64,000 nucleotides of DNA from Paeniglutamicibacter sp. Y32M11 (lineage in GTDB: Bacteria > Actinomycetota > Actinomycetes > Actinomycetales > Micrococcaceae): positions 3,720,001-3,784,000 of the forward strand of contig NZ_CP079107.1 in assembly GCF_019285735.1 (NCBI RefSeq), read 5' to 3'. Below are positions 7,131-29,864 of this stretch, piece by piece. The position numbers were made by a program, and so were the translations under genes. The stretch's first letter is position 1; each line of letters starts with the position of its first letter. The notes beneath the pieces were generated by a model that did no database searches, was not told the DNA's origin, and saw only the letters and a list, made by a program, of their open reading frames with translations.

Positions 7131-7144
7131 GGTGTGCATTCCTT

Positions 7145-8836: not shown

Positions 8837-8922
8837 GTTTTGTCCCTTCTCGCGGGCGCCGCCCGATGCATCTTCCTCACGCACCAATACGTGGCGCAGG
8901 TCACTTGTTGAATCAATACTAT

Positions 8923-10617: not shown

Positions 10618-10830
10618 TGTCGTGCCTTTCGTGTGCGGCGGAAAAGAATGTAACGCCGCAGGACGATGATGTCGGGCGGCTGTGGGGCAAACTATCCTTT
10701 GAGCGGATCGGCAGCACTGCTGCGATTGAGCCCGCTCGTCACTCCCCGGGGCGCGCGGGAACCGCACGCACCCCACGGAGTTTTGACACAACCCTCAGAC
10801 TCAAGGGGAAAAGCTAATGGGCTTGGTTTT

Positions 10831-12300: not shown

Positions 12301-12301
12301 T

Positions 12302-15508: not shown

Positions 15509-15521
15509 CGTTCGCCTCCTG

Positions 15522-15534
15522 CTTGATCGTCAAG
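15522..15534. promoter_or_regulatory. Short inverted repeat before the tetR gene
   Basis: CTTGA-TCG-TCAAG forms a perfect 5-bp-arm repeat 14 bases upstream of the TetR start. It could be an autoregulatory site, but so short a repeat may occur by chance. Confidence 0.25.
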
Positions 15535-15592
15535 TGATTCTCCAACGCTACCACTGGCGAATTCGGCGTTTGGTCATTGAATTGCCTCATGA

Positions 15593-17743
15593 TCAGGCCT
15601 TCCAGCGGATCAAAGCATCAAGTGCTTCGATCTGATTGCCGGCAACCCTCAGCGGGTTAATCTCCAGCTCTTCGAGCTGATCCCCCAGGCCAACGGCTAT
15701 CTGAGAGATTCTGAAAATGACCGAGGCCAGTTCATCCAGGTCCGTGGCCTCGGAACCACGGAAGCCGGTGAGTAGGTCAATGCCCTTGAGAGATTCGAGC
15801 ATGCGGCGAATTTCTGCGGGACCCACCGGGAGCAGTCGCAGCGCCGAGTCCTTGAGAATTTCGACCATGACTCCGCCAAAGCCCACTGCCAGCACCAGTC
15901 CCCACTGCGGATCGCGAACGATTCCCACCAGTAGCTCATTTCCCGCCGGACGCATCGGGGAAACTGCAATTCCCTGAACGTTTGCAAGCGGTGCCAGGCT
16001 GGCCACCGAAGTACGGATGAAATCGTACGCCTCGGCAACGGCCACGGCGTCGCGAAGCATCAGCCGCACCCCACCAACTTCGGTCTTGTGCGCAATGTCT
16101 TCCGAGGCCACTTTAAGCACCACCGGATATCCCATGTCCTCCGCCGCTGCCACGGCAGTGGCGGCCGAGGTCGCAATGACGGCAGGAACATACGGTGCAC
16201 CGTGTTCACGCAGAAAATTCCCGGTTTCAATCTCGGTCCAGCTCTCGGCGCCCTCGGGCTTGGAGAGGTGTGGTGCCGCTGGGACTTTGGCGTCAGCGGC
16301 TAGCTCCGCGGTTCGCCTGCCCCACCAGGCACTTCGTGCCACAGCGGGAATGCCCCTATCAAAGGAATCGGAGGCGTGGGGGAAGCCATGATCGATGGCA
16401 AACTGGCGGCCGAATTCCGTTACCTCCGTGGGCAAGAAGCTCATGGCGATCACGGGCTTGGACGAAGCGGTGAGCTGGCGAAGTAGCTCGTCTTGTGTAG
16501 GTTTGCCCATGTCAGCCATCACCTGGTTGGCCGGCCAAGAGCCGTTGACCACCACGAAGTCGTAGTTGGGGTCATCGATAAAGCACTGGTTGGCCTTGGT
16601 CAGGATCGTGGGGTCCACAGAAATGTAACCGGTGGTGTCCATCGGGTTATTCACGGTGGAGAAGGAAGGCAGACCAGCATCGTGCAGTCCGCGGATGGTG
16701 CTTTCCGAGGGTGACGGCAGTTGAAGACCCACTTGTTCGGCTTTGTCGGCCACCAGGGCGCACATGGCACCGGATCCGGTCACCACGCCCATGCGATTAC
16801 CCGGCAACGCGCCATACGATTCAATGATTCCTGCGGTTGCCACCAGGTCCTCAATGTTCTCCACCCGGATAACACCGAACTGCTTGCAGGCGGCATCGAT
16901 GACGTTATCGTCCCCGACTAGGGAACCGGTATGGGCTGCAGCCACGCGGGCCGAGGCCTCGCCGCGTCCAGCCTTGAAGATGACTACAGGTTTGCCGACG
17001 GCACGAGCTCGTTCCACGACGGCGAGGAATTGTGCGGGATTCGAGATCTGCTCAAGATAGGCGGCAATGACCTTGGTATTTTCGTCGTCCACCAGCAGCC
17101 CCATCACATCGATCGCCGAAATCATGGCCTCGTTGCCCACCGTCACGGCGGTGGAAAAGCCCACACCACGTGATGCCATGTAAGGAAGCAGGTAGATGGC
17201 CAGTGCACCGGACTGGCTGGCAATGCCGACGCCGCCGGTGATGAGCGGCATGCGGGTCATGTGGCTGAAGGCAGCGACCTTCGCATGGGCATTGATAAAT
17301 CCCAGGTTGTTGGGTCCGAGAATCAGCTGATCCGCGGCACGAGCGCGTTCCACCAGTTTCGCCTGCAACGCTTCACCCTCAATTCCGGCTTCTCCCAACC
17401 CCGCGGCCAACAAAATGAGATTGCGAATGCCCTTGGCACGAGTTTCTTCCAGAATCGTCTCAAGCGAATTGGTGCCGGTGAGCACAATGGCCAAGTCGGG
17501 AACTTCCGGCAGATCCTCGATGGAGGCAAACGACGCTTGACCGTGGCAGTCTTCCCCGCGGCGATTCACTAAATAGAGGTTTCCGGTGAAACCTCCGTCC
17601 AGCAGGTTGCTGTGCGTAAAGTGCGACCAGGTCGACTTGGAATTTGCGCCAATGATCGCTACCGAACGCGGCTCAAGTAATTCACGTAGTCGTGCCGTAT
17701 CAAGAGTCGGAGTAGAAGCAGTTTCGCTTGTCAACGTTGTCAT
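15593..17743 (-). CDS. ADP-forming (ATP-grasp) acyl-CoA synthetase
   Basis: This 716-residue protein fuses the modules of the NDP-forming acyl-CoA synthetases. A CoA-binding Rossmann domain comes first (LLEPRSVAIIGANSKSTWSH). A succinyl-CoA-synthetase-like middle follows (SQSGALAIYLLPYMASRGVG; AAHTGSLVGDDNVIDAACKQ, the phospho-histidine region). The end is an ATP-grasp domain (MGYPVVLKVASEDIAHKTEVGGVRL and LEELEINPL). These enzymes make acyl-CoA from acid, ATP and CoA, releasing ADP. The ATG at 17743 follows AAAGGA by 11 bases; the frame extends to 17842 without support. It lies 79 bases after the fused acyl-CoA dehydrogenase and probably activates its substrate. Confidence 0.9.
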   Translation of the reverse strand: MTTLTSETASTPTLDTARLRELLEPRSVAIIGANSKSTWSHFTHSNLLDGGFTGNLYLVNRRGEDCHGQASFASIEDLPEVPDLAIVLTGTNSLETILEETRAKGIRNLILLAAGLGEAGIEGEALQAKLVERARAADQLILGPNNLGFINAHAKVAAFSHMTRMPLITGGVGIASQSGALAIYLLPYMASRGVGFSTAVTVGNEAMISAIDVMGLLVDDENTKVIAAYLEQISNPAQFLAVVERARAVGKPVVIFKAGRGEASARVAAAHTGSLVGDDNVIDAACKQFGVIRVENIEDLVATAGIIESYGALPGNRMGVVTGSGAMCALVADKAEQVGLQLPSPSESTIRGLHDAGLPSFSTVNNPMDTTGYISVDPTILTKANQCFIDDPNYDFVVVNGSWPANQVMADMGKPTQDELLRQLTASSKPVIAMSFLPTEVTEFGRQFAIDHGFPHASDSFDRGIPAVARSAWWGRRTAELAADAKVPAAPHLSKPEGAESWTEIETGNFLREHGAPYVPAVIATSAATAVAAAEDMGYPVVLKVASEDIAHKTEVGGVRLMLRDAVAVAEAYDFIRTSVASLAPLANVQGIAVSPMRPAGNELLVGIVRDPQWGLVLAVGFGGVMVEILKDSALRLLPVGPAEIRRMLESLKGIDLLTGFRGSEATDLDELASVIFRISQIAVGLGDQLEELEINPLRVAGNQIEALDALIRWKA

Positions 17744-17822
17744 ACGAAATGTGGTCCTTTCGGTGAAACATGCGGGTGGAAGAATTCTCTGCTGTTCTGG
17801 GGGGATGGTGCCGCGGTTTGAA

Positions 17823-20030
17823 CTATCCGCGCGGCAGTCCAAGAATGCGTTCGGCTATGACGTTGAGCTGAATTTCAACTGTTCCGCCACCGATGAGGAC
17901 TTGTGGAACCGAGAGCTGGCCGATCACCGCGTCTGCCGTGGCATTGGCCAAGAGCGCCGAGACGCCGGCCAAGCGTAAGACGTGAGTAGCAGCCTCCCGG
18001 GTGAGTCGAGCATGAGCGACCTTGGCAAGCGAGGAACCGAAGCCGGGTTGCATGCCGTTGACTTGGCGCAATGTTTCCCGCAGGTTCAAAGCACCGATTG
18101 CCGAGCTCATGGCGGCAATCCTACCCAGTGAGCCAAGCGCCGCCTGTTGTGTCCCAGCATGCTCGTCTGCACTAATCATGGCCCGCAGCGACTCTTCGGT
18201 GCCCACCGAAACGCCGGACGAGATCTGGGTCCGTTCATTCTGGAGTGTGGTGGCAGTGATGCGCCACCCCTGACCCGGCTCACCGAGCAGGAAATCGTCG
18301 GGGACGAAGACCGCGTCGAGGAAGACCTCATTGAATTCGGCGTCACCCGTGGGTTGCTTCAGCGGCCGAACGTCGATTCCCGGGGTTTTCATGTCGATCA
18401 GGAAGTAACTCAAGCCCTTGTGTTTGGGTACTTGGGTGTCGGTGCGGGCCAAGCAAATGCCCCAATGCGCCTCGTGGGCACCGGAGGTCCAGACTTTTTG
18501 GCCGGTCAGTTCCCAACCACCGGCGACCTTGGTGGCGCGGGTGGAAAGACCCGCTAGGTCCGAGCCGGCTCCGGGTTCGGAGAAAAGCTGGCACCAGATC
18601 AGTTCGCCGCGCAGCGTCGGCATCGCGAATTTTTCTTTGATGGCTTCGGTGCCGTAGGACAGGATTGTGGGCATCGCCCATTCGCCAATAACGGAGGAGG
18701 GCTGGGTCAGATTCCTGCGTGCGTATTCTTGCGAAATGACAACTTGTTCCGCGGGCGAAGCCGAAAGTCCGTAGGGTGCCTGCCAATGGGGAGCGGCAAG
18801 GCCGTTCTCCGCGAGGAATGTTCGCTGTGCTCCGTGCGAGTACCACCGCCCATTTTCGTGCTCATTTTCTAGGGTGGCCGCTTCGTCAAGTAGGGCCCCG
18901 ATGCGCACCCGGAATGCGGGATCCTCATCGGCAAGCTCAATGTCGATGCGACGGTCACTGGCTACGGCAACTGCGCCGAGAGCTTGTATGCGCTCATCAA
19001 GCGGGGCGAGTTGTGCGCCCAGAGTCATGGCACGTCGCCAGTAGAGGTGGGCGTCGTGTTCCCACGTGAATCCGATACCACCAAAAATGCTTACTGCCTC
19101 GGTGATGGCTTCCACGCTTGGTACAACGGCTGCTTCAATGGCCGATCCGGCGGCCAGCGCTTGCTGGACGTCGTCCTGTTCCAGCGATACGACGGCTGAC
19201 CAGGCAGCGGCGGTTGCCAGCTCGGAAGCGATGAGCAGATTTGCGCATTTGTGCTTAATGGATTGGAAGGAGCCGATGGGAGCACCAAACTGCTCACGCA
19301 TCTTCGCGTATTCAGTGGTGGCCTCCACCGCCCAGCGCATGATGCCTGCTGCTTCGGCGGCGAGCAATCCGGCCTGCAACGTTTGGACATAGCTCGGGCT
19401 CAGGTCCGTAAGAATCGATTCTGGTTCGACGGTGAAGCCCTTCAGAGCCAAGGTCCCCGCATCTCGGGTGATATCGGTGGAGGCTTCGGCGATACGCTCG
19501 ATGCCTTCCTCCGTTGCCTGAACCAAGGCGAATCGGGTTACCGATGCGACGGTAAATCCAATGACAAGGTACTCGGCCGATAGTAACGAAGTCACCGCGG
19601 CGGTACCACTGAGCTTCCAGCCTTCGGCCGTTTCCACAGCGGAGAGCGATGGCGTCGGCATCACCAGGGTGCCGGTCGCTCCTTCAGCGAAGAGATCCAA
19701 ACCTCGGACCGAGGCCTTGCAGTCAACTGCGGCGGCCACCGCCGAGCTGGCCAGGACCGTTGAAACGAAGGGGCCGGGGACGAGGCTTCGAGCGAATTGC
19801 TCGACGACGATGGCGGTGTCAGCCACGGTGCCACCCTGTCCCCCTCGCTCCTCGCTAATGTGCAGTGAGTGGAGTCCGTTGTCCACCAATTCTGCCCAGA
19901 ACTCCGGCCGGCCGCCGAGCGCGATGGCCTCGAAGTTTTCACGGGTAACGGAAATTGCTGCATACCGAGCCGCGAATTCGCTGACTGCGGCAGCAAGCTC
20001 CGAGTGTTCTTCGGTAAGGGAAAGCGGCAT
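17823..20030 (-). CDS. Fused two-domain acyl-CoA dehydrogenase, FadE34/ChsE3-like
   Basis: At 735 residues this is about twice the usual acyl-CoA dehydrogenase length. Residues 1 to about 360 form one module (MREQFGAPIGSFQSIKHKCA, FGGIGFTWEHDAHLYWRRA). The rest is a second module with the FAD/substrate signatures CQLFSEPGAGSDLAGLSTRA, WTSGAHEAHWGICLARTD and the C-terminal GGGTVEIQLNVIAERILGLP. Such fusions mimic the alpha2beta2 steroid acyl-CoA dehydrogenases; mycobacterial FadE34 (ChsE3), acting on the C24 side chain, is the model. GGAG lies 9 bases before the ATG. It leads the operon and has a palindrome 74 bases upstream. Substrate assignment is inferred. Confidence 0.9.
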   Translation of the reverse strand: MPLSLTEEHSELAAAVSEFAARYAAISVTRENFEAIALGGRPEFWAELVDNGLHSLHISEERGGQGGTVADTAIVVEQFARSLVPGPFVSTVLASSAVAAAVDCKASVRGLDLFAEGATGTLVMPTPSLSAVETAEGWKLSGTAAVTSLLSAEYLVIGFTVASVTRFALVQATEEGIERIAEASTDITRDAGTLALKGFTVEPESILTDLSPSYVQTLQAGLLAAEAAGIMRWAVEATTEYAKMREQFGAPIGSFQSIKHKCANLLIASELATAAAWSAVVSLEQDDVQQALAAGSAIEAAVVPSVEAITEAVSIFGGIGFTWEHDAHLYWRRAMTLGAQLAPLDERIQALGAVAVASDRRIDIELADEDPAFRVRIGALLDEAATLENEHENGRWYSHGAQRTFLAENGLAAPHWQAPYGLSASPAEQVVISQEYARRNLTQPSSVIGEWAMPTILSYGTEAIKEKFAMPTLRGELIWCQLFSEPGAGSDLAGLSTRATKVAGGWELTGQKVWTSGAHEAHWGICLARTDTQVPKHKGLSYFLIDMKTPGIDVRPLKQPTGDAEFNEVFLDAVFVPDDFLLGEPGQGWRITATTLQNERTQISSGVSVGTEESLRAMISADEHAGTQQAALGSLGRIAAMSSAIGALNLRETLRQVNGMQPGFGSSLAKVAHARLTREAATHVLRLAGVSALLANATADAVIGQLSVPQVLIGGGTVEIQLNVIAERILGLPRG

Positions 20031-20377
20031 TGACTTACTCCAACGTCACGGACGAGATCTACCCCTAAGTGGGATATTCGTCGAGGTCTAATATCGGGAA
20101 CTGAAACTAGACTCTAGTTTAATTTTGTGACTTGGGCAACACTTTTTGCCTTCTAAATAATCCACTGCAAGTGGAGCTTCCAAAACGTCGAAATCACGCA
20201 GCATCTTTAACCACAAAAGGGTGAGCCGAACCGGAGAAAACGAAGCCTCAACACCGTTTTCCTGCCAGCTCGACTCGCCCTTCCGGTGGCCATGCACCGC
20301 ACCGCGTCACCCTCATCGCGCTCGGACTTCTTGGTCCACGGCGCGGCAGCGGCCCGACACCATGGCCCGCATCCCGG
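20031..20377. other. Intergenic region between two acyl-CoA operons
   Basis: About 350 bases without a supportable gene. It contains the promoter region of the fused acyl-CoA dehydrogenase, the perfect 17-bp palindrome at 20104-20120, and the 3' end of the operon that finishes at 20378. I found no convincing T-tailed terminator. Confidence 0.55.
20104..20120. promoter_or_regulatory. Perfect 17-bp operator-like palindrome upstream of the fused dehydrogenase
   Basis: AAACTAGA-C-TCTAGTTT is a perfect 8-bp inverted repeat with a one-base spacer, 74 bases upstream of the start at 20030, within an AT-rich promoter-like stretch. A close relative lies at 8923-8937 and a weaker one at 29248-29262, each in front of an acyl-CoA catabolic operon. 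Its size and geometry suit a TetR dimer. Confidence 0.6.
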
Positions 20378-21043
20378 TTAGTCGGCCAATTCCTCAACCG
20401 CTACGCCATAACAGGATTCGGGATTCACCCGCGGCGGCAGCCACAACCCATGGGCCCTCGCCACTACTGCTCCGGCGGCACGTATTTCTCCACGAACCCA
20501 AATCTTGCGACCATCAACCCGCTCCACCGTCGCCACAATCTCCAGCTCCTCAAAGAGGGGCACCGCGTGGTCGTAATCAACCGTCAGCGATCGAGTAAAA
20601 ATCCACGATCCAACGGTTCCAGCCGCATATCCCATGAGGTGATCCAGTAACGTTGCCACCATCCCACCATGAACGCGTCCGGGCGGTCCCTGATACGCCA
20701 AGCCGAGCGCTGTTGTGGTGCGCGCAGTATTGTCATCTCCCATGCTCAACTGCACCGGAGGCGCCATGGGATTCAACGCCCCGGAGACCATGGATCGGTC
20801 CGCGGCTCCATACTGCCGTGATTTACTCATGGCTTCAACCGGCTGAACGTGCCCGGCAAGCAGCTCCAACAACTCCTCTAGGCGTTGCGCCAGTACGGAT
20901 GCGACGGGTGAATCTTCTTTGAGCCTGACCATCGCATCCACCAACAGGCGGGCACGATCGGCGGCCAACAGCAGGGCTTGACGGTGGTCCGCGAAATCCG
21001 TGTGGCTCGTACCAGAGGGGGGCCACGCCGCAGGCTTAGTCAT
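20378..21043 (-). CDS. PaaI-type hotdog thioesterase
   Basis: This 221-residue protein has a C-terminal hotdog domain of the PaaI/4HBT kind: GPPGRVHGGMVATLLDHLMGYAA, TRSLTVDYDHAVPLFEELEI and GRKIWVRGEIRAAG. The first 90 residues are a helical extension. Such enzymes hydrolyse acyl-CoA thioesters, often to rescue CoA from stalled intermediates. The start overlaps the Ltp2-like stop by 8 bases (ATGACTAA), so it is co-translated as the last gene of the igr-like operon. Confidence 0.82.
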   Translation of the reverse strand: MTKPAAWPPSGTSHTDFADHRQALLLAADRARLLVDAMVRLKEDSPVASVLAQRLEELLELLAGHVQPVEAMSKSRQYGAADRSMVSGALNPMAPPVQLSMGDDNTARTTTALGLAYQGPPGRVHGGMVATLLDHLMGYAAGTVGSWIFTRSLTVDYDHAVPLFEELEIVATVERVDGRKIWVRGEIRAAGAVVARAHGLWLPPRVNPESCYGVAVEELAD

Positions 21044-22211
21044 TTCCGAGGATCAGCGCGCTGGTCGGAACGCCGGTGCCGGCGCTGACCAATACGTTGC
21101 GCGCGTTGGGCACCTGGTTGACGGCGGTACCGCGGATCTGCCGAACACCCTCGGCGATGCCGTTCATGCCGTGGATGTAGGCCTCCCCCAGCTGGCCGCC
21201 GTTGGGGTTGATGGGCAAACGCCCACCCATCTCGATGGCTCCGTTCTTGATGAAGTCCTTCGCCTCGAAGCGGCCACAGAAACCAAATTCCTCCAACTGG
21301 GCCAGCACAAACGGCGTGAAGTGATCGTAGAGCACCGCTGTATCAATATCTTCAGGGGTCAAACCGGTGTCATTCCATAGCTTGGCGGCAACATTGCCCA
21401 TTTCCGGCAGCGTCCGGTCCCCGTCCTTGCGGTAGTAGCTAACCATGGAGTGCTGGTCATAAGCAGCGCCCTGGGCTGCTGCCTTGATGCTTACCGCCTG
21501 GCCCGGCAGATCCCGTGCGCGTTCCGGGGTGGTGATGACAAAGGCTTGGCCACCGTCGGATTCCTGGCAGCAATCCAAAAGGTGCAGCGGGTCAGCGATC
21601 CAACGTGAGGCCTGATGTTCTTCCAAGGTGATCGGCTTGCCGTAGAACCAAGCCTTCGGGTTGGTGGCAGCATGCTTGCGGTCGGCCACCGCCACGCGGC
21701 CAAAGTCCTCCGAAGTTGCGCCGGAGAGGTGCATGTAGCGCTGGGCGAACATCCCGACCCAGGAGGCGGGGGTCATCAGACCCGAGGGCAGCGTCCAAGC
21801 GTAGGAGGCGGCCCGGGCATCCGGTGCCATGCCCGCGGTGCTCATCGCCTGCCCAAAGCGGGCGCCGGAGCGTTCGTTGAAGGCGCGGTAGCAGACCACC
21901 GTCTTGGCCACACCGGTGGCCACTGCCATGGCCGCGTGCAGGATGGTTCCGGCGGCGGCGCCTCCACCGTAATCGACGTGGCTGAAGAAGTTCAGCTCCT
22001 TGCAGCCCAGGCCACGGGCGACCTCGATGGCTGGGTTGGTGTCCATCGAGTAGGTCACCATGCCGTCCACGTCGTGCGGGTTCACCCCGGCATCGCGGCA
22101 GGCGGCCAGTGATGCCTCCTGGGCCAGCTGAAGTTCGGAACGTCCGGAGTTCTTGGAAAACTCGGTGGCTCCGATGCCGACGATGACTGCCTTATTCAGC
22201 AGGTTGCTCAT
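21036..22211 (-). CDS. Ltp2-type thiolase-fold retro-aldolase
   Basis: This 391-residue protein closely matches mycobacterial Ltp2, the aldolase removing the last three carbons of the cholesterol side chain as propionyl-CoA. Shared segments include FFSHVDYGGGAAAGTI (no nucleophilic cysteine), YRAFNERSGARFGQAMST, LYDHFTPFVLAQLEEFGFC and GGQLGEAYIHGMNG. Tyr295 and Tyr345 fall where Ltp2 has functional tyrosines. It overlaps the ChsH1-like gene (ATGA) and the thioesterase. Its obligate partner is expected to be the DUF35 protein at 22648-23106. Products by analogy are a ketone and propionyl-CoA. Confidence 0.9.
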   Translation of the reverse strand: MSNLLNKAVIVGIGATEFSKNSGRSELQLAQEASLAACRDAGVNPHDVDGMVTYSMDTNPAIEVARGLGCKELNFFSHVDYGGGAAAGTILHAAMAVATGVAKTVVCYRAFNERSGARFGQAMSTAGMAPDARAASYAWTLPSGLMTPASWVGMFAQRYMHLSGATSEDFGRVAVADRKHAATNPKAWFYGKPITLEEHQASRWIADPLHLLDCCQESDGGQAFVITTPERARDLPGQAVSIKAAAQGAAYDQHSMVSYYRKDGDRTLPEMGNVAAKLWNDTGLTPEDIDTAVLYDHFTPFVLAQLEEFGFCGRFEAKDFIKNGAIEMGGRLPINPNGGQLGEAYIHGMNGIAEGVRQIRGTAVNQVPNARNVLVSAGTGVPTSALILGND

Positions 22212-22651
22212 GCTGTTTCCTCTCGGGAGGGAATCGAAAGATCGATGGTGCCGGTGACGTGCGGGCCCAGGGAGTTGGTGCCGATGACCTTGAGAGTGAT
22301 CTTCTGGCCGTCCACCGCTTCAACAGAACCGGTGAAGACCATTTCGTCTCCCGGGAAGTTCGTGGCACCTAGGCGAATGTTGATCCGGCTCATCCGGGCG
22401 GTGGGTCCGGCCCATTCGCCCACATAGCGGTTGACCAGCGCGTTGGTGGTCAGAATGTTCATAAAAACATCCTTGGTTCCAGCGGCAATCGCGACATCCT
22501 TGTCGTGGTGCACCTTTTGGAAGTCACGGGTGGCAATCGCACCGGTGACGATCAGGGTCGCGGTGATCGGAATCTTTAGTTCCGGCAGGGTGTCCCCCAC
22601 GGAGACCGAATGCGGGCGGGCCAGGGCTAGGGTCGATTCGACGGTGCTCAT
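22208..22651 (-). CDS. MaoC-like hydratase subunit, ChsH1-like
   Basis: This 147-residue single hotdog protein resembles ChsH1, one half of the heteromeric enoyl-CoA hydratase ChsH1-ChsH2. The segment GAIATRDFQKVHHDKDVAIAAGTKDVFMNILTTNALVNRYVGEWAG carries the Asp and His positions of the MaoC active site (TRDFQKVHHD). Start and stop both overlap neighbours (ATGA at 22648 and at 22208), in the same order as chsH2-chsH1-ltp2 in the mycobacterial igr operon. It probably pairs with the MaoC protein at 23106-23624. Confidence 0.87.
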   Translation of the reverse strand: MSTVESTLALARPHSVSVGDTLPELKIPITATLIVTGAIATRDFQKVHHDKDVAIAAGTKDVFMNILTTNALVNRYVGEWAGPTARMSRINIRLGATNFPGDEMVFTGSVEAVDGQKITLKVIGTNSLGPHVTGTIDLSIPSREETA

Positions 22652-23106
22652 GCTTGTCCTCCTACCGGGTGCGCCACGGGCAACACCAAGTCCTCATCCA
22701 TACGTTTAATAGTGATGTCCACGTCCATGCCGATTTTTACGTCCGCACGTTCTACGTCCTCGAGGTTCATGATGACCCGCGGCCCCTCGTCGAGCTCGAT
22801 GACCGCGACGATGTAGCCCGGCTCGAACGGGGGAACGATCGGGTGATACAGCACCACGTAGCTGTGGAGGATGCCGTGCAAGGACATAACCTTCGGCGCC
22901 CAATGCGTCGAATGACACTCGGGGCACATCGGTACCGGCGGGTGGCGCAGTTCGTTACAGTCGCCGCATTGCTGGATGCTCAACTCTCCGCGTTCGGCTA
23001 GGGACTCAAAGTAAAAGGCGTTATCCAGGTTGATAGCCGGGCGCGGGCGCAGGGCCTGGACTTGGGGCTGGGTCTGATTCTGGGCGTCGGATAGTGTCTG
23101 AGTCAT
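22648..23106 (-). CDS. DUF35 protein with intact zinc ribbon, equals the C-terminal half of ChsH2
   Basis: This 152-residue protein has an N-terminal helix, a zinc ribbon (QQCGDCNELRHPPVPMCPEC) and an OB-fold (GILHSYVVLYHPIVPPF, YIVAVIELDEGPRVIMNLED). In mycobacteria this domain is fused to the C-terminus of ChsH2 and binds Ltp2; here it is a separate gene. The ATG at 23106 overlaps the preceding stop by one base (TGATG) and has GAGGAG upstream; an extension to 23136 is less likely. It is expected to bridge the hydratase and the aldolase. Confidence 0.88.
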   Translation of the reverse strand: MTQTLSDAQNQTQPQVQALRPRPAINLDNAFYFESLAERGELSIQQCGDCNELRHPPVPMCPECHSTHWAPKVMSLHGILHSYVVLYHPIVPPFEPGYIVAVIELDEGPRVIMNLEDVERADVKIGMDVDITIKRMDEDLVLPVAHPVGGQA

Positions 23107-23624
23107 CAGGAGCTCCTCTTTGCGGGGTTGTACCAAAGCGTGCGGAAGCGCATGGTTCCGACGGCTTCGCCCTGCTGATCGGTAAAGGTGGTCAGGGTGG
23201 TGATGAAATAGCCTTCGCCGAGGCCCGTTTGCTTGGGACCCACGAAGGTTTCAACCTTTTCTGTGGAGGTCAGCACATCTCCGGGAGAGACGTAGCGGTC
23301 ATATTCTTGGTCGCAATTCACCGCAACGACGTTTGGGTAGCCGCAGTCGGCGAGAATCGCATAGGCGCGGTCCACATCGCTTTCGATTTCCTGATCCGCG
23401 GGATTGATCATGTTCCACACCGCCAACGCCGAGGGCGGGGCCACCACGTCGGGGTGGCCAGCAGCGCGGGCAACCTCGGGGTCGAGATAAATCGGATTGG
23501 ACTCCCCCATCACCTCGCACAGGTGATGAATCATCGGCCGATTGACCTCATCACGGGCCACCGACACCCTTTCGCGTCCGGCGGAGATAATCTCGCCGAT
23601 CTTCACGTTCGGATCGTTGCTCAT
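23106..23624 (-). CDS. MaoC-like protein, equals the N-terminal half of ChsH2
   Basis: This 172-residue hotdog protein (VARDEVNRPMIHHLCEVMGESNPIYLD; ARAAGHPDVVAPPSALAVWNM; YVSPGDVLTSTEKVETFVGPKQT) corresponds to the MaoC domain of ChsH2, the non-catalytic or accessory half of the ChsH1-ChsH2 hydratase. The start overlaps the stop of the FadD-like gene (ATGA) and the stop overlaps the DUF35 start. A two-gene ChsH2 differs from the single fused mycobacterial gene. Confidence 0.87.
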   Translation of the reverse strand: MSNDPNVKIGEIISAGRERVSVARDEVNRPMIHHLCEVMGESNPIYLDPEVARAAGHPDVVAPPSALAVWNMINPADQEIESDVDRAYAILADCGYPNVVAVNCDQEYDRYVSPGDVLTSTEKVETFVGPKQTGLGEGYFITTLTTFTDQQGEAVGTMRFRTLWYNPAKRSS

Positions 23625-25336
23625 ACTGTCTCCTTGATATGGGTGTGTGCTGGTCGTAGGGGTAAAAGGTGAGCTCGGCCGTTGACTTCGAACTGCGCTT
23701 CTAGGGCCTGCGTTGCTCGTTCATCCAGCCGCGCGAAGACGATTTCCCGTCCCGGGCGGTGATAAACGATTTCGTTCACCAGCCAGGCGTCTTTACGCAG
23801 GATGGGCTTGTTGATCTTTTGCGTTGCCGTCACCGGTACGTCGCGCACAATGCTGATGAAGCGCGGAGCCCACTTGGTCCCCAAATCTGGCTGCACTTCG
23901 AGGAAAGCAGCGAAGGCCACTGGATCGAAGTCATCGGGGTTTTGCACCTGCAGTGTGGCCATGACCTGGTCACCGGTGCGGGCGTCGGGGACCGGGTAGA
24001 CGGCGGCGAGGGTGACACCCTCGAAACGGGCCAGGACACGTTCCACCGGGGCTGCCGAGAAGTTCTCGCTGTCCACGCGCAAGCGGTCGGAGGTGCGTCC
24101 GGCGAAGTAGAAGAAGCCCGCCTCGTCGCGATAGCCCAAGTCTCCGGTCAGGAATGCGTTGCCACGGATGCGCTCGGTGCCGGCCTCGGGGTTCTTGTAG
24201 TACCCCTCGAAGAGGGACGCACCCGTGAGGTTGACCAGCTCGCCGATCGCTTCCTCGGCGTTGAGGATGCGTCCGGAATCATTGAGAATGGCCGGTGGGC
24301 ATTGCTCCATCGTTGCCGGATTGATGACCGCGGCATCCATGCCGGCCGGTGGCAGGCCCAGGGAACCCGCGGGGGTTTCAGGGGTCCGGCTCAGGGTCAG
24401 TCCGCCCTCGCTGGAACCGTAATTTTCGGTGGGCCAGACGCCGAAGCGGCGGTGGAACTCGGTCATGTCCAATTCCGAGGCTTCGGTACCGAAGCAGGCG
24501 GCCAAATTGGTATGGGCTTCGGCGGATTTCTCCGGCTGGGCCAGAATGTAGGACAGCGAGCGGCCCACATAGTTGAAGTAGGTGACCTTGTACCTCATCA
24601 AATCCGGGACAAAGCCCGAAGCCGAGAATTTGCGGGCCAGCGCAAAGGTGCCGCCGGTGAACAGCGGATTCGCCCAGCAGGCGAAGATGCCGTTGCCGTG
24701 GAATAGCGGCATCGAGTTGTAACTGACGTCGTTGCTGCCCAGTCCCATGTGGCGGTACTCAGCGGTGCGACACAGCCGACCGGTCGTGCAGATGACGGCC
24801 TTTGGGTCTCCGGTGGAACCGGAGGTGAAGAGCAGGAGCAGGTTAGTGGATGGGTCGCCAGCCGCGGCAAGATCCGGGCGCCCTGTCTTGCGGTAGCTTT
24901 CAACGTGCGCTGCGAAGGATGGGGTACCAATGCGCAACGTCTGGCTTTCGGGGATCCCGGAGTCCACCCCGTTAAAGCAGGTCTCGAGCTCGCTGCTGGT
25001 GATCAGCATTTCGCAATCTGTGTAGTGGATGTCGCGGGCCAGTTCTTCTCCGCGGCGGGTCAGGTTGATGCCCACCACGGTGGCTCCGGCATAGGCGGCA
25101 CCACCGATAGCGAAGATGTATTCCGGGTCATTTTCCAGCATGACGCCCACGTGGAAGGCCTTGCCTTCCTGGTGCAGCGCGAGCATCATATGCGCCCGGA
25201 TCTTGCATTCGGCCACGACCTCGGACCAGGTCCAGATGCGGCCCTCAAAGAGTAATCCGGGACGATCATCGTCGGCTCGTAGGTCCAGTAGATCTCTGGT
25301 AGTTTGAGGTTTTGTCTCTTCAATGACGGTATTCAT
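23621..25336 (-). CDS. AMP-forming acyl-CoA ligase, FadD17-like
   Basis: This 571-residue ANL-superfamily enzyme shows the P-loop LLLFTSGSTGDPKAVICTTG, the substrate-site YNSMPLFHGNGIFACWANPL, ENYGSSEGGLTLSRTP, the hinge GDLGYRDEAGFFYFAGRTSDRLR and the catalytic lysine region TQKINKPILR. Its overall sequence resembles mycobacterial FadD17, which activates steroids with carboxylic side chains. It lies 2 bases after the MFS gene and overlaps the MaoC gene (ATGA). In the pathway I infer, it activates the acid produced by the aldehyde dehydrogenase, or an imported short-chain acid. Confidence 0.9.
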   Translation of the reverse strand: MNTVIEETKPQTTRDLLDLRADDDRPGLLFEGRIWTWSEVVAECKIRAHMMLALHQEGKAFHVGVMLENDPEYIFAIGGAAYAGATVVGINLTRRGEELARDIHYTDCEMLITSSELETCFNGVDSGIPESQTLRIGTPSFAAHVESYRKTGRPDLAAAGDPSTNLLLLFTSGSTGDPKAVICTTGRLCRTAEYRHMGLGSNDVSYNSMPLFHGNGIFACWANPLFTGGTFALARKFSASGFVPDLMRYKVTYFNYVGRSLSYILAQPEKSAEAHTNLAACFGTEASELDMTEFHRRFGVWPTENYGSSEGGLTLSRTPETPAGSLGLPPAGMDAAVINPATMEQCPPAILNDSGRILNAEEAIGELVNLTGASLFEGYYKNPEAGTERIRGNAFLTGDLGYRDEAGFFYFAGRTSDRLRVDSENFSAAPVERVLARFEGVTLAAVYPVPDARTGDQVMATLQVQNPDDFDPVAFAAFLEVQPDLGTKWAPRFISIVRDVPVTATQKINKPILRKDAWLVNEIVYHRPGREIVFARLDERATQALEAQFEVNGRAHLLPLRPAHTHIKETV

Positions 25337-25338
25337 GC

Positions 25339-26841
25339 TTAATCCTTAAGGGTGAGGTGGTCTACCTGGGCGTCGGATTCCCGTGGATTGGCGATCTTTG
25401 TCGGTGGAATGAACAAGACAACGACAATGGTCAGAAGGCACGTGGTGATGAGCACGCCCGCGACGAGGAAGAATCCTGCCAACGAGACGAACGTGTTCTC
25501 GCCTGCTACAACAGGCGAGAACGCGAGCAGCAGGCCCACCACGGAGGCGGCTACTGCTTGGAAGGCCGTGCGTGTGACCGCGTTGACGGCCGTCGCGGTG
25601 CTGGTTTGTTCCGGAAGGACACATTCCACGATGACCGTAGGCATCCCGGAGTAGAGGAACCCGGTGCCAAAGACCGTGATGACTAGGCCGGTGAGCACCA
25701 CCGGAAGCTGGCCCGGCGCCACACAGATAACGACGAGGCCAACAATCATCAAGAGCGAGCCAATCATCAGACCGATTCGCGCCCCGAAACGAGCGGAGAT
25801 CTTGCCGATCAACGGTGAGATGGCGAATGCCGCTGCAGCTGTGATGAATCCGAGCAGGCCGGTCTGTGTGGCACTGAGCCCCAGCCCCACCGGCAAGTCC
25901 ATGACACCGCCATCGGCCGCGGGGATGCTCCTCGGGGAGCGGTAAATCGTCACGGTCAGGATGCTCATGGTCCCAATGGGTCCCACGGCGATCAGCGCGG
26001 TAGCTAGCATGCCTAAGGCAAATTTGCGCTGGCCAAACATCCGCACATTGATCATGGGTTCCTCGATGCGCAGCTCCCACCTGACCCACAGCGCCAGCAC
26101 GACCAATCCGCCAATCACGAAGGTAAGCACCGATAGATCGCTCCAGCCCCTGCTCTTGCTCAGGGTCAGCCCATAGAGGGTCGAGGCGATGGCGGCGCCA
26201 AAGAGCAGACCACCGAAGTAGTCGATCTTTCCTGCCGAGGCCAGGGTTTCCCGTGGCTCGCGCGGGATACCGAAGTGCACGAAGGCCGCGGCGAGGGTGG
26301 CGGCAATAGCAGCGGTCCAGAAGATGTAGTGCCAGGACGCGTAGTCAAGGAACAACCCTCCCGCGAGCATGCCCGCCGCTCCGGCGATGAGCGCCGAGGT
26401 GCTGACCACCGCGATGCCCAGGCTGACCTTCGCCGCGGGGAAGCTGGACCGAACCATGCCGATGGCTAGCGGCAGCACCGCGCCGGAGACCCCCTGCAAG
26501 GCCCGGCCGGCCACCAGCACGCCGAAGGTCGGGGCCAATGCGCTGATGACCGAGCCGACGGCAGAGATCAGCAGGATGGCAACCATGATCTTGCGCCGCC
26601 CAAACTGATCACCGAGGCGTCCCACGAATCCGGTGGCCAGTGCGGCCACCAGTGAGTAGGCGGTAATGACCCAGACCAACTGCGAGAGATCGGCGGTGAA
26701 GAAGTCCCCCGGCGTGTAGAGCAACTGCACGGCCATGGAGGTCTCGAAGGCGGCGATGACTTCCGCAAACACCAGGATCGCGAGTATTGAGCCGACACTG
26801 CGAGTGACCGTCGTGGGCTCAACGCGTGAACCCACACTCAT
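25339..26841 (-). CDS. MFS transporter of the DHA2 type, inside the igr-like operon
   Basis: This 500-residue, roughly 14-helix carrier has FAEVIAAFETSMAVQLLYTP, the motif-A loop GRLGDQFGRRKIM and GRALQGVSGAVLPLAIGMVR. It resembles the carrier at 9127-10617. Its start overlaps the stop of the FadE28-like gene (ATGA) and its stop is 2 bases before the FadD17-like gene, so it is firmly part of the operon. Mycobacterial igr operons lack a carrier. It is likely an importer of the substrate or an exporter of the resulting ketone. Confidence 0.88.
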   Translation of the reverse strand: MSVGSRVEPTTVTRSVGSILAILVFAEVIAAFETSMAVQLLYTPGDFFTADLSQLVWVITAYSLVAALATGFVGRLGDQFGRRKIMVAILLISAVGSVISALAPTFGVLVAGRALQGVSGAVLPLAIGMVRSSFPAAKVSLGIAVVSTSALIAGAAGMLAGGLFLDYASWHYIFWTAAIAATLAAAFVHFGIPREPRETLASAGKIDYFGGLLFGAAIASTLYGLTLSKSRGWSDLSVLTFVIGGLVVLALWVRWELRIEEPMINVRMFGQRKFALGMLATALIAVGPIGTMSILTVTIYRSPRSIPAADGGVMDLPVGLGLSATQTGLLGFITAAAAFAISPLIGKISARFGARIGLMIGSLLMIVGLVVICVAPGQLPVVLTGLVITVFGTGFLYSGMPTVIVECVLPEQTSTATAVNAVTRTAFQAVAASVVGLLLAFSPVVAGENTFVSLAGFFLVAGVLITTCLLTIVVVLFIPPTKIANPRESDAQVDHLTLKD

Positions 26842-27974
26842 GATTGATCCAGCGGAAGAATCACGTTAGCCAGTTCCTCTGCCACCTGCCCAGCGGAGCC
26901 CCACAGCACATCGAGTTCGCGAACCCAGATGAAGAAGCGGTGAATGTGGTTGTCCACATCCGCACCCATTCCCCCATGAAGGTGTTGGGTTGCGTGGACC
27001 GCACGGAAACCGCCCTCGCGCGCGCACCAAGAGGCGGTGAACGCTGCAAGTTCGCCCTCGCCGTCGTTATCCAGTTGCCACGCTGCGTCCATGGTGGTTA
27101 ACCACGTGACCACCGAATCAATGTGGGCGTCGGCCGCGCGCATCGCCACCCCTTGGTTGGTGGAAAGCGGCCGACCAAACTGCTCGCGCTCCGAGGTATA
27201 TGCTGCGGTGCGGCGAACCGCTTCCTCGCAGGCACCCGCGGTGAGGGCGGCGGTGGCGGTGAGCAGACGCGGACGGATCCACCCGGCAACCTCCCCGGCC
27301 GGGCGCTGTGCACCGATCAGGTCTTCGCTGGATACACGCACGTTGTTAAGGGAAAGTGCTGCGTGCTGCAGGTTGGAGATTCCCGTGAATTCATCCACCT
27401 CTACTCCGACGCGCTCAGCTTCGATGAGCGCCACCATTTCGGTGCCGTCGACATGGAACTGAACGAGCAGGTGTGTCGAGCTGGGAACAACATAACCAAA
27501 TTCAAGGTGTCCGTTCAGCACCCACCCATCGCTGGCGACCGCCCCGTTAATACGCTGGCGAACCTCGGGCAGCAAGACACCTACCAGTGCGCTTCCCGCA
27601 TTGATGTTTTCAAGGACGTCAGGGCGGTCACCGAACTCGGCCAGTGCGAGCGCGGCAACGGCGGTAGTCACGAAGGGGATGCGGCCGAGGTAGCGGCCCT
27701 GTTCGCGAGCGATCAGGGCCAAACCCACCATGCCCAGTCCGGGCTCATCCTCAGCCATGGGAAGTAGTGCCTCGAGCAAGCCGGCTTCAACGAGCTGTTC
27801 CCATAGGGTGGCGTCGAAGGCTTCACCCGTCTTCACCGAGGCCAGATGCCGATCATCGTCGCTCAGGTGAGAGAAGATCTGACCCGCGAGGTCAACGACC
27901 GACTGCTCGTCCTCTCCCAAGGTGAATTCCATGTTGGGGGCCTGCAACGTGCTCTGAATGTTTGCGGGGCTCAT
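26838..27974 (-). CDS. Acyl-CoA dehydrogenase subunit, FadE28/ChsE1-like
   Basis: This 378-residue acyl-CoA dehydrogenase-fold protein resembles FadE28 (ChsE1), one subunit of the alpha2beta2 enzyme acting on the three-carbon steroid side chain. Recognisable parts are TSEREQFGRPLSTNQGVAMR and HATQHLHGGMGADVDNHIHRF; the N-terminal half is poorly conserved, as is usual. Start and stop overlap the neighbours (ATGA at 27971-27974 and at 26838-26841). It is expected to form a heterotetramer with the product of 27971-29152. Confidence 0.88.
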   Translation of the reverse strand: MSPANIQSTLQAPNMEFTLGEDEQSVVDLAGQIFSHLSDDDRHLASVKTGEAFDATLWEQLVEAGLLEALLPMAEDEPGLGMVGLALIAREQGRYLGRIPFVTTAVAALALAEFGDRPDVLENINAGSALVGVLLPEVRQRINGAVASDGWVLNGHLEFGYVVPSSTHLLVQFHVDGTEMVALIEAERVGVEVDEFTGISNLQHAALSLNNVRVSSEDLIGAQRPAGEVAGWIRPRLLTATAALTAGACEEAVRRTAAYTSEREQFGRPLSTNQGVAMRAADAHIDSVVTWLTTMDAAWQLDNDGEGELAAFTASWCAREGGFRAVHATQHLHGGMGADVDNHIHRFFIWVRELDVLWGSAGQVAEELANVILPLDQS

Positions 27975-29152
27975 CGTGCCTTCCTTGCCATGCCGAGGGT
28001 GGTCCAGGCGACAATCTCGCGCTGGATTTCAGCGACGCCGCCGCCGAAGGTATTAATCTGTCCACTCAGGTTCATCAGGGCCAGACGCCCGGTATCAAAG
28101 CGCCACGGTGCGTTGGTGATGCGCGAGGCTCCGGTACCCACAATCTCCAGTAGAGAACGGTAGACGTCGATAACGGTCTCGGTGGCGAAGATCTTGGCCG
28201 CTGACGCCGATCCCGGATCGAGTTCCCCTCGGGTGGTGGTTTCCACCAGCTTCCAGTTCATTAGGCGCATGGCGCGCAGCCGGGCGGTGGAGGTGGCCAG
28301 CAGGTGGCGAACCCAGGGTTCGGCACTCAGTGGTTTGCCCTCGGCGGTTTGCTGCTCAACGACCCATGCGTGCACGTCGTCGAGCAAGCCCTCGCAAATG
28401 CCGCTGTAGGCGGCCAGCCCGACTCGTTCGTGGTTCAGCTGGGTGGTAATCATCCGCCAGCCTTCGTTCTCCTTGCCAACAACGTTGGTGACAGGAACGC
28501 GGACGTCGTCGTAGTAGGTGGCCGTGGTGCTTAGCCCACCCACTGTGTGGATCGGGGTAACGGAGAATCCGGTCGCCGTGGTGGGAACCAGAATCAATGA
28601 GATGCCCTTGTGCTTGGGAGCATCCGGGTCAGTTCTGGCGGCCAACCAGATCCAGTCGGCACCGTCGGCGCCGGAAGTGAAGACTTTGCTGCCCCTGATC
28701 ACGTACTCGTCGCCCTCGCGAACAGCCCGGGTGGCGAGTGAGGCCAGGTCCGTGCCGGCCTCGGCTTCCGTGTAGCCGATAGAGAAAATGCATTCGCCGG
28801 CCAGAATCTTGGGAAGGAAGTAATCCTTCTGTGCTTGGGTGCCCTGACTCATGAGCGTTGGGCCAACGGTGGTCAAGGTGATCATCGGAATGGGAGCTTC
28901 TGCCCGATAGGCCTCGTCGTAGAACACAAACTGTGCGTCCGGGCCCAAACCCTGTCCGCCGTATTCGATGGGCCAGCCGATACCAAGCCATCCATCGCTG
29001 CCCATCTGGGCTTGGATTGCTGCGTGTACCGGGCCACCTGCCTCGCCCTCTCCACGCAGCCCTGCTCGAACTTCGTCCGTCAAGAGATTTGCGAAGTAGG
29101 TACGGAGCTCCGCGCGGAGATTTGTGATCTCCGAGGAAGAACGTAGATGCAT
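27971..29152 (-). CDS. Acyl-CoA dehydrogenase subunit, FadE29/ChsE2-like
   Basis: This 393-residue protein is close to FadE29 (ChsE2). Matching segments are GWLGIGWPIEYGGQGLGPDA, FSIGYTEAEAGTDLASLATR, VFTSGADGADWIWLAARTDP, HKGISLILVPT, GKENEGWRMITTQLNHERVG and NTFGGGVAEIQREIVA. The ATG at 29152 follows AAAGG by 7 bases; the frame extends to 29239 without support. It is the first gene of a nine-gene, tightly coupled operon. It probably introduces a double bond next to a branched carbon in the acyl-CoA chain. Confidence 0.92.
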   Translation of the reverse strand: MHLRSSSEITNLRAELRTYFANLLTDEVRAGLRGEGEAGGPVHAAIQAQMGSDGWLGIGWPIEYGGQGLGPDAQFVFYDEAYRAEAPIPMITLTTVGPTLMSQGTQAQKDYFLPKILAGECIFSIGYTEAEAGTDLASLATRAVREGDEYVIRGSKVFTSGADGADWIWLAARTDPDAPKHKGISLILVPTTATGFSVTPIHTVGGLSTTATYYDDVRVPVTNVVGKENEGWRMITTQLNHERVGLAAYSGICEGLLDDVHAWVVEQQTAEGKPLSAEPWVRHLLATSTARLRAMRLMNWKLVETTTRGELDPGSASAAKIFATETVIDVYRSLLEIVGTGASRITNAPWRFDTGRLALMNLSGQINTFGGGVAEIQREIVAWTTLGMARKAR

Positions 29153-29864
29153 TGCGTTGCCTTTCGTCGTTGAACAGGCGTTAGCCGTCGGCGACGGCAA
29201 TGTGTGATCGAGATTACTTACCGGCCGGCAAGCAGTCAAGATATTGAAACACGGTTCTATTTAAGCTAGAGGGCGGGAGTGCCGCACACTCCCACCGGTA
29301 CCGCTTGGGGATGAAGGGGAATTATCCTTGTGCTATATATCGACCGAATAAGAGAATAGATATGGATATATAATGCAAAATGAATAACGCAAAGAAAAAG
29401 GCCTACAATACGCCGAAAAGCCCTGCGAGATACTCATGCCGCCAGAAGGATGGACGCTTGACGGGATGGAGAAGGCTAAGATGCCGGTCACGAGCAAAAC
29501 TCCACTACTCTTGCCCGGCGAACGCTCACCTAAAATGGAAAAAGCAGTCATTAGAAGATTGTTAATCAAATTACACTTGGTTAAAGATCTGGGCAGCGAA
29601 ATCGATAAATAGTCAACCGGGCAATGCTTTCATTCATGGACCATCGAAACAGAACGACAGCACCTCTAAGGTACCTTCAGGGCAAACTCGTTCAAATGGA
29701 ACATCAACGGTGCCGACCTCATGGCTGCGATCCAACAGCTCACTGCGGATCGATCAAAAAACGTCATTGCACGAAGGCGAAGCGTCAGGGAAATTCCCGA
29801 TCAAGTCGGTGACCAGTCTCTCTTGGCGAGGCATGAAGCCGCCCCGCGTCGCGAGGTACCCGGT
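29153..29864. other. Intergenic region with an AT-rich core
   Basis: About 710 bases without a supportable gene. The first 110 bases should carry the promoter of the igr-like operon. The stretch 29320-29640 is clearly richer in A and T than its surroundings (for example around 29332-29400) and contains only short reading frames with no ribosome site, so it may be remnant or transferred DNA. Confidence 0.5.
29248..29262. promoter_or_regulatory. Weak operator-like match before the igr-like operon
   Basis: AACACGG-T-TCTATTT, 96 bases upstream of the start at 29152, keeps the right half of the AACTAGA-N-TCTAGTT element seen at 20104 and 8923 but has a degenerate left half. Position and spacing are similar to the other two sites. 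Confidence 0.3.

Follow-up and report, generated by a model that had tools for sequence, protein, structure and literature searches.

The igr operon of Mycobacterium tuberculosis (cyp125-fadE28-fadE29-chsH2-chsH1-ltp2) encodes the dehydrogenase, hydratase and aldolase core that is also found at the locus studied here. The chemistry of Ltp2 and ChsH has been described, and the two halves of ChsH2 keep activity when they are expressed separately (PMC12502768). In the RHA1 cas cluster, as given in Table 1 of PMC8399759, the gene of a C22-acid ligase (casI) stands by those of two acyl-CoA dehydrogenases (ACADs), two MaoC subunits and an Ltp2-type aldolase (casL-P), and an MFS protein, CamM, serves the cholate pathway. 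CasI activates C3 side chains, and aldolysis in proteobacteria yields a C22 acid that needs re-activation (PMC8399759). A ligase adjoins the same core in Actinomadura and Nonomuraea loci. The Shy-Sal-Sad route of Comamonas and Pseudomonas shares a YDCY Sal-type aldolase, an aldehyde dehydrogenase and a C22 ligase with the present locus. The HBC operon of Mycolicibacterium neoaurum (atf1-chsH4-chsE6-kstR3), which channels sterol intermediates towards C22 products, has a Sal-type aldolase alongside a KstR-type regulator and a free-standing DUF35 protein (PMC10398937), and its description includes no aldehyde dehydrogenase, hydratase or MFS. The nearest solved relatives of both ACADs and of the Ltp2/DUF35 pair are from Thermomonospora curvata (Tcur3481/3483 and Ltp2-ChsH2(DUF35)), and no embedded MFS is mentioned for it in the publications consulted.

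We analysed a stretch of 64,000 nucleotides of Paeniglutamicibacter sp. Y32M11 (the window). Compared with igr, its nine-gene operon lacked the P450, had the ACAD order reversed and ChsH2 split, and contained an MFS, a ligase and a thioesterase in addition. RHA1 cuts the C5 chain via the thiolase CasB, without Sal and Sad; here the C5 cassette was of the aldolytic type, ChsH2 was split, and the MFS lay between an ACAD and the ligase. Where the Shy-Sal-Sad route has a MaoC-DUF35 fusion, the candidate aldolase partner here was a separate DUF35 protein without zinc site, and an actinobacterial double-MaoC hydratase, a fused ACAD and an ADP-forming synthetase were present. A ligase beside the C3 core is not new, since CasI has this place in the Rhodococcus cholate cluster. 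The preliminary description had stated that the known operon holds no carrier or ligase; the absence of a ligase is correct for mycobacterial igr and does not extend to the cas cluster or the Actinomadura and Nonomuraea loci. The chemistry is already known, and what is new is its packaging with an activating enzyme and a membrane pump of its own as one of two separable cassettes. Our main reading, to which we give a probability of about 0.72, is that the operon would be a C3 cassette for C22 steroid acids, supplied by the C5 cassette, with MFS exporters and under repressor control.

Results

Gene content of the operon

The nine ORFs were co-directional on the minus strand, from 29152 to 20378 (Table 1). 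The transcription order was ACAD29-type, ACAD28-type, MFS, AMP-ligase, MaoC (ChsH2 N-domain type), DUF35, MaoC (ChsH1 type), Ltp2-type and 4HBT thioesterase. Overlaps at 7/8 junctions bore out the earlier account of nine genes in this order, almost all overlapping. Both genes had 4 bp (ATGA) in common at five junctions, and the overlap was 8 bp between Ltp2 and thioesterase and, with the ATG at 23106 taken as the start of DUF35, 1 bp between MaoC and DUF35. A gap of 2 bp separated the MFS and the ligase. The base composition gave no horizontal-transfer signal.

Table 1. Genes and proposed control sites of the two cassettes in the window
Feature	Position	Strand	Evidence
Promoter/operator: TTGACT, 17 bp, TAATCT	29211..29239	-	encloses palindrome CTGCTTGCCGGCCGGTAAGTAA (29214-29235)
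Acyl-CoA dehydrogenase, ChsE2/FadE29 type	27971..29152	-	best solved relative Tcur3483 (6wy8_B), 424 bits
Acyl-CoA dehydrogenase partner, ChsE1/FadE28 type	26838..27974	-	best solved relative Tcur3481 (6wy8_A), 165 bits
MFS transporter, DHA2/EmrB type, embedded in operon	25339..26841	-	TIGR00711 (EmrB subfamily) best match, 144 bits (cut-off 230)
Acyl-CoA ligase, CasI (steroid-22-oyl-CoA synthetase)-like	23621..25336	-	NF052587 (CasI) best NCBIfam match, 602 bits (cut-off 900); FadD17 413 bits
Non-catalytic MaoC subunit, ChsH2 N-terminal half, separate gene	23106..23624	-	126 bits to ChsH2 of 4w78/4wnb
DUF35 protein, ChsH2 C-terminal half, separate gene	22648..23106	-	6ok1_B ChsH2(DUF35) 109 bits
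Catalytic MaoC hydratase subunit, ChsH1 type	22208..22651	-	134 bits to ChsH1 (4wnb_B)
Steroid side-chain aldolase Ltp2	21036..22211	-	NF005892 661 bits (cut-off 469); 6ok1_A 574 bits
Hotdog (4HBT) thioesterase, last C3-cassette gene	20378..21043	-	PF03061 38 bits; 2ov9_A 100 bits
Palindrome AAACTAGAGTCTAGTTT, putative C5-cassette operator	20104..20120	-	
Fused two-domain acyl-CoA dehydrogenase (CasC/FadE34-like by architecture)	17823..20030	-	two ACAD domain sets in 735 aa
ADP-forming acyl-CoA synthetase	15593..17842	-	ATP-grasp_5, Succ_CoA_lig, CoA_binding_2
TetR regulator, KstR-like in DNA-binding part	14894..15508	-	TetR_N; KstR 63 bits
VOC/glyoxalase-fold protein	14050..14871	-	PF13669; methylmalonyl-CoA epimerase model 50 bits (cut-off 115)
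Sal-type (C5 side-chain) aldolase	12746..13951	-	CtSal (9myr_A): 448 bits, 205/403 identities (51%)
Second DUF35 protein, candidate Sal-type aldolase partner	12302..12733	-	PF01796 59 bits
Aldehyde dehydrogenase, candidate Sad (C22 aldehyde to C22 acid)	10831..12402	-	PF00171 515 bits
Second DHA2 MFS transporter	9127..10791	-	35% identical to operon-embedded MFS
Double-MaoC (MFE-2 type) enoyl-CoA hydratase, CasD/ChsH3-like by architecture	7943..8887	-	PF22622 + PF01575
Electron transfer flavoprotein (beta 7145-7915, alpha 6144-7139)	6144..7915	-	
Cytochrome b561-type membrane protein, closes C5 cassette	5191..6132	-	PF01292; position conserved

ChsE1/ChsE2, ChsH1, ChsH2 (as two genes) and Ltp2 were encoded together, and the CasL-P type homologues, assigned via homology to solved ChsE/ChsH/Ltp2 proteins, formed one block. 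Ltp2 kept both YDHF at 295 and the second catalytic Tyr (in GEAY). The ChsH1-type subunit showed the conserved Asp/His dyad region TRDFQ-VHHD. In the non-catalytic MaoC subunit, Tyr replaced the MaoC His, as it does in ChsH2, and the DUF35 protein carried a Cys4 zinc ribbon (C-x2-C-x10-C-x2-C). The genes previously described as MaoC and DUF35 were both present and are better read as the two halves of ChsH2, which was fused in 69/78 loci compared. A hydratase identity for Tcur3481-3483 was dropped, as the PDB record names acyl-CoA dehydrogenases. The ligase, formerly called FadD17-like, was closer to CasI than to FadD17, with both scores under the cut-off.

CYP125 was found neither in the operon nor in the genome, whose sole P450 had its best NCBIfam matches among cyclodipeptide- and glycosyltransferase-associated models. 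This and the ligase within the operon upheld the suggestion that the substrate is carboxylated and already oxidised.

The embedded MFS had EmrB, EfpA and QacA-type exporters as solved relatives. If the operon alone led from uptake to cleavage, as the preliminary description has it, the MFS might be a proton symporter that brings in a C22 (or similar) steroid acid from outside. The operon occurred without a C5 aldolase in two genomes (G004 and the incomplete G005), where only pre-shortened acids would be usable, and CamM of RHA1 re-takes cholate metabolites (PMC8399759). However, CamM has been described as non-essential and not conserved (PMC4810484), and a paralogous MFS was present in the C5 cassette, where the C22 acid would be the product and not the substrate. 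Because the best model match and the solved relatives placed the MFS nearest to DHA2 exporters, uptake by this protein was not supported, and we regard import as unlikely. From its family, we infer the direction to be export.

The C5 cassette downstream

A second conserved cassette, missed in the preliminary description, lay directly downstream of the operon. The view of the operon as self-sufficient was incomplete, as it took account neither of this cassette nor of a cluster for ring degradation at a distance of about 0.25 Mb. Given the C5 cassette, a C24 bile acid would be the likelier starting substrate here. The fused ACAD was the first gene in the copies read, and the electron transfer flavoprotein genes follow either cassette in relatives.

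The Sal-type aldolase kept YDCY and both catalytic-site Gln (Gln347/Gln352 equivalents). In the aldolase tree, read with row G122 disregarded (out-of-frame sequence), Sal stood apart from the Ltp2 set, which had a support of 100/100, and the branches between window Sal and CtSal were weakly resolved. The genome contained only two DUF35 domains, one adjoining each aldolase. The second DUF35 protein gave no zf-ChsH2 match and was without the zinc-binding cysteines. The true start of the aldehyde dehydrogenase is probably downstream of the ORF start. ORF 14868-15590 was in the wrong frame and was replaced by the TetR gene, for which KstR was the only NCBIfam match. It covered the N-terminal part and stayed below the equivalog cut-off of 280 bits.

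Promoter and proposed operators

The start of the first gene was placed at 29152 and not at the TTG at 29239 given by the ORF-caller, because this TTG falls within the promoter/operator. The promoter/operator footprint was conserved across Micrococcaceae loci (7/9 C3-cassette loci), and its palindrome was the sole site in the genome with up to 2 mismatches. The -10 element was weak and absent from the promoter-scan listing, and this weakness counts against the main reading. A conserved CTTGCCGGCCGGYAAG palindrome was dropped as a regulon mark, with one good site in the genome. The C5 palindrome had no good copies in the ring cluster. A TetR match (49-51%) was seen in cas-like loci of Nonomuraea and Actinomadura, and orthology is not claimed since the match spans the DNA-binding segment only. 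Besides the KstR-like TetR, another TetR gene lies at 29865-30440. The palindromic putative operator of the C3 cassette and the KstR-like TetR in the C5 cassette suggested repressor control.

Distribution and host genome

The identical nine genes were found in identical order in 8 other genomes of four genera, with Ltp2 90-97% identical, and the order is therefore not due to chance. The comparison of Micrococcaceae synteny gave an invariant order in 9 genomes, with the thioesterase after Ltp2 in 9/9 carriers. The preliminary description had named insertions of the MFS and ligase unique to one strain as evidence against it. Since both were inside the operon in 9/9 carriers, it was not overturned on this point, and the MFS insertion is real and conserved across the four genera.

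The Ltp2- and Sal-type aldolases occurred together in 11/395 Micrococcaceae genomes, against 0.6 expected, and the two cassettes were linked in either order among relatives. Elsewhere in the host genome there were genes of KshA (KshA_C 288 bits, cut-off 23), HsaA (best match 386 bits, equivalog cut-off 450), HsaD, and KstD-like and FadD3-like proteins. The presence of KshA and HsaA, used as the test, classed the host as a 9,10-seco steroid degrader. KshA and HsaA were found in 8/13 Ltp2 carriers and 2/20 non-carriers tested. None of the 8 Sal-only genomes had them, nor did four genomes with both aldolases, which suggests that these carriers are side-chain-only degraders. One carrier, Glutamicibacter protophormiae JCM 1973, had both aldolases together with KshA and HsaA. 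All twelve genomes without KshA and HsaA were at least 90% complete. Such carriers are odd for full growth on a steroid and count against the main reading.

These data bear on two other explanations. The locus could be an ordinary actinobacterial cholate cluster with drifted gene order, and the ring enzymes of the carriers without KshA and HsaA could be too divergent to recognise. In gene content, the C3 part matches casI plus casL-P, and ligase-adjacent cores are common in Actinomycetes. However, C5 cleavage at the locus is assigned to a Sal-type aldolase and not a CasB-type thiolase, and KshA and HsaA were missing jointly in the same genomes, with HsaA 78-98% conserved in others. We consider drift improbable. 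The substrate could also be a different ring compound (a plant steroid acid, degraded saponin or terpenoid) whose carboxylic side chain bears an alpha-methyl group, so that the homology would reflect side-chain chemistry and not the rings. This would fit the twelve carriers, the Sal homologues in other contexts and the candidate Sal-partner DUF35, which has no counterpart of the zinc site shaping ring specificity in CtShy. In contrast, the Ltp2, ChsH and ChsE subunits were all nearest to steroid enzymes, and the frequency of KshA and HsaA in Ltp2 carriers also argues against it. Such a substrate is in our view quite improbable. Sal-type genes 59-70% identical to that of the window were present on Rhodococcus plasmids in contexts that were not clearly bile-acid clusters, and this counts against the main reading as well.

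Discussion

The nine-gene operon very probably serves to cleave off the three terminal carbons of the side chain in bile-acid-like steroids. From close homology to solved enzymes, we infer the following steps. The CasI-like ligase would make the C22-oyl-CoA, and the two-gene ACAD pair would introduce a C17-20 double bond. Hydration at C17 by the ChsH1/split-ChsH2 hydratase would follow, and Ltp2, paired with the separate DUF35 protein, would release propionyl-CoA and a 17-ketosteroid. The thioesterase probably recovers the CoA of steroid-CoA that has stalled.

The C22 substrate probably comes from the adjacent C5 cassette in the host genome. The ADP-forming synthetase perhaps catalyses the initial CoA activation. 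Dehydrogenation and hydration would follow, and the Sal-type aldolase would cleave the product aldolytically to acetyl-CoA and a C22 aldehyde, whose oxidation would give the C22 acid in free form. A ligase is a necessary part of the C3 cassette because the aldolytic route stops at an unactivated acid. We can only guess which enzyme activates C24 acids, since the ligase scored under the CasI cut-off and no CasG ligase passed its cut-off in the genome, and this counts against the main reading. Both cassettes combined would give an aldolytic route from C24 via C22 to C19. The DHA2-type MFS of each is most likely a proton antiporter for the export of steroid acids or ketosteroids, which would limit their toxicity. 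An aldolytic C5 route in an actinomycete would explain the C22 ligase built into the C3 operon.

We tentatively consider a broader possibility. Side-chain removal from steroid acids in Micrococcaceae might be organised in a pair of autonomous, interchangeable cassettes (aldolysis from C24 to C22, and C22 to C19) that each contain a dehydrogenase, hydratase, aldolase-DUF35, CoA synthetase and DHA2 exporter. The strains without KshA and HsaA might then feed solely on the carbon of the side chain and hand C22 acids or C19 ketosteroids over to neighbouring organisms. Surveys of genomes for steroid degradation relied on KshA and HsaC (PMC5790920), so cassette-only strains would go uncounted, and a division of labour, if true, would be invisible to surveys with these markers. 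Cassettes without ring-opening enzymes predict strains that degrade steroids in part and give off steroid acids or androstane-type ketones, for instance where soil has been manured. Side-chain-only strains could be useful for C22 and C19 steroid synthons.

Nine-gene operon and its core enzymes

The preliminary description had listed nine genes, namely FadE29-like, FadE28-like, MFS, FadD17-like, MaoC, DUF35, ChsH1-like, Ltp2-like and thioesterase. The ORF list and the domain matches bore out their position and order, and all nine lay on the minus strand. The host genome was a single contig of 4,173,408 bp, with the window at 3,720,001-3,784,000. According to the ORF-list coordinates, five junctions of the operon were ATGA four-base overlaps. 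MaoC and DUF35 overlapped by one base, provided that DUF35 started at the ATG at 23106, Ltp2 and thioesterase overlapped by eight bases, and MFS and ligase were separated by a 2-bp gap.

Core subunits were compared with PDB sequences by phmmer, and each matched a steroid side-chain enzyme. The large and small ACAD matched Tcur3483 (424 bits) and Tcur3481 (165 bits), the two MaoC proteins ChsH1 (134 bits) and ChsH2 (126 bits), the DUF35 protein ChsH2(DUF35) (109 bits), and the thiolase-like protein Ltp2 (574 bits). Ltp2 kept the catalytic YDHF and the second tyrosine (GEAY), both known from TcLtp2 (PMC12329534). The Asp/His region was intact in the ChsH1-type subunit, and tyrosine replaced histidine in the ChsH2-type subunit. 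Of the 78 compared loci, 69 had a fused ChsH2; the split form was seen in the window, Brevibacterium and one Nocardioides MAG. Separately expressed halves of Comamonas ChsH2 keep both activities (PMC12502768), so splitting should do no harm. The operon is a variant of the C3 side-chain system known as igr/cas, and its enzymology could be assigned with fair confidence.

Features of the window (positions within the window)
Feature	Position	Strand
DUF35 gene of the C5 cassette	12302-12733	-
Sal-type aldolase gene (assigned by similarity)	12746-13951	-
ADP-forming acyl-CoA synthetase gene	15593-17842	-
Nine-gene operon (C3 cassette)	20378-29152	-
TetR gene preceding the operon	29865-30440	
Helicase gene (1050 aa)	30594-33746	-
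3-(3-Hydroxyphenyl)propionate-type cluster	54605-60124	-

Predicted aldolytic step and embedded ligase

Downstream of the operon, twelve genes on the same strand formed a second block, the C5 cassette, which was absent from the unit described earlier. It encoded, in order, a fused ACAD, ADP-forming acyl-CoA synthetase, TetR, VOC protein, thiolase-like protein, DUF35, aldehyde dehydrogenase, MFS, double-MaoC hydratase, ETF beta, ETF alpha and cytochrome b561. The thiolase-like protein was identical to CtSal (9MYR) at 205 of 403 aligned positions and had the YDCY motif and both active-site glutamines. It was assigned on these features as a Sal-type aldolase. YDCY homologues have been noted in cholesterol-degrading Actinobacteria (PMC12329534), and an Atf1/ChsH4 pair in M. 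neoaurum (PMC10398937). The genome held exactly two DUF35 domains, each adjoining one aldolase.

Cholate degradation in the actinobacterium RHA1 is thiolytic and proceeds without Sal or Sad (PMC8399759), in contrast to the window with its Sal-type aldolase. The gene combination predicts that C24 would be shortened to C22 by aldolysis, giving a free acid. This would be a simple reason for the ligase inside the C3 operon. The ligase was nearest to the steroid-22-oyl-CoA synthetase CasI (602 bits; cut-off 900). In RHA1, casI lies near casL-P (PMC8399759 Table 1). In Actinomadura, Nonomuraea and Streptosporangium loci, a ligase 34-46% identical stood immediately ahead of the ACAD pair. The implied novelty of such a ligase was not upheld, since RHA1 and these loci have one; a ligase beside the C3 core is not unusual.

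Several further observations were made. The DUF35 protein beside the Sal-type aldolase was without any zinc-ribbon cysteines; described steroid DUF35 partners carry Cys4 or Cys3His1 sites. The ADP-forming synthetase stood where an AMP-forming CasG/StdA1 ligase was expected. A plasmid of Rhodococcus sp. DMU1 (L136) carried an 'acetate--CoA ligase family' gene close to the gene for a Sal-type aldolase. A Rhodococcus qingshengii plasmid (L135, NZ_CP147922.1) carried a 70% identical Sal-type aldolase in a mobilizable-plasmid cluster with an ABC transporter, CoA transferases, split MaoC genes, a Rieske protein and alkane monooxygenase. In this context the aldolase possibly has another substrate.

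Embedded MFS and inheritance of the cassettes

The MFS gene lay between ACAD and ligase in 9/9 carriers from four genera, including Glutamicibacter protophormiae JCM 1973 (L052), and is a Micrococcaceae feature in this place. Brevibacterium had no such insertion, nor did the C3 genes of a fifth genus of Micrococcaceae, which formed a different set. The protein was of the DHA2/EmrB type, whose solved relatives are exporters. We infer the transport direction from family membership. The insertion described earlier is real and conserved, but the protein is probably not an uptake carrier.

The C3 cassette was rare and patchy among Micrococcaceae. In 395 sampled genomes, Ltp2 was found in 13 (nine of the window's type), the Sal-type aldolase in 19 and both in 11, compared to 0.6 expected (hypergeometric 7e-15, relatedness ignored). 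C3 came before C5 in the window and G231, and after it in G392 and two Glutamicibacter-genus genomes (G036, G063); the cassettes were unlinked in G012 and G329. G004 and G005, the latter an incomplete genome, had only the C3-cassette aldolase, and eight genomes had only the Sal-type aldolase. The two cassettes are inherited separately. In G059, G122, G154, G168, G232, G241, G250 and G336, the Sal-type aldolase was 80-92% identical, and Ltp2, KshA and HsaA were missing. The C5 cassette was complete in G059 and G241 and rearranged in G122, where the VOC gene was missing.

A palindrome, best form TTACTTGCCGGCCGGYAAGTAA, lay between TTGACT and TAATCT about 60 bp 5' of the first gene's ATG and was kept in 7/9 carriers. 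A genome-wide search for further TTACTTGCCGGCCGGYAAGTAA sites (up to 2 mismatches) found none. The C5 cassette encoded a KstR-like TetR. Its first gene was preceded by another palindrome, AAACTAGAGTCTAGTTT, of which a relative stood before the hydratase gene.

Ring degradation and substrate

KshA (288 bits), HsaA, HsaD, KstD-like and FadD3-like genes were found at ~4.03-4.05 Mb of the same genome, in which no CYP125-like P450 was found. Ring enzymes were scored in 41 genomes, with minimum values of 200 bits for KshA and 78% identity for HsaA. KshA and HsaA occurred together in 8/13 Ltp2 carriers, 0/8 Sal-only carriers and 2/20 others. Both were missing from four two-cassette genomes, G012, G231, G329 and G392, with G392 and G329 being single contigs. 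Such carriers may either harvest side-chain carbon only or have differing ring enzymes or substrates. These genomes are the most interesting point raised by the operon.

The ring cluster (genome positions 4000001-4060000, L020-L022) also contained two Old Yellow Enzyme proteins with BaiCD similarity of 200-216 bits. Both may serve in 5-beta steroid dehydrogenation, a role that would favour a bile-acid substrate.

Other genes in the window

The 3-(3-hydroxyphenyl)propionate-type catabolic cluster encoded a hydroxylase, a hydratase and an extradiol dioxygenase, and adjoined nitrate/taurine-type ABC transporter genes. The helicase, encoded upstream of the TetR gene, showed RadD/type I restriction R-subunit similarity and is possibly a defence or repair protein.
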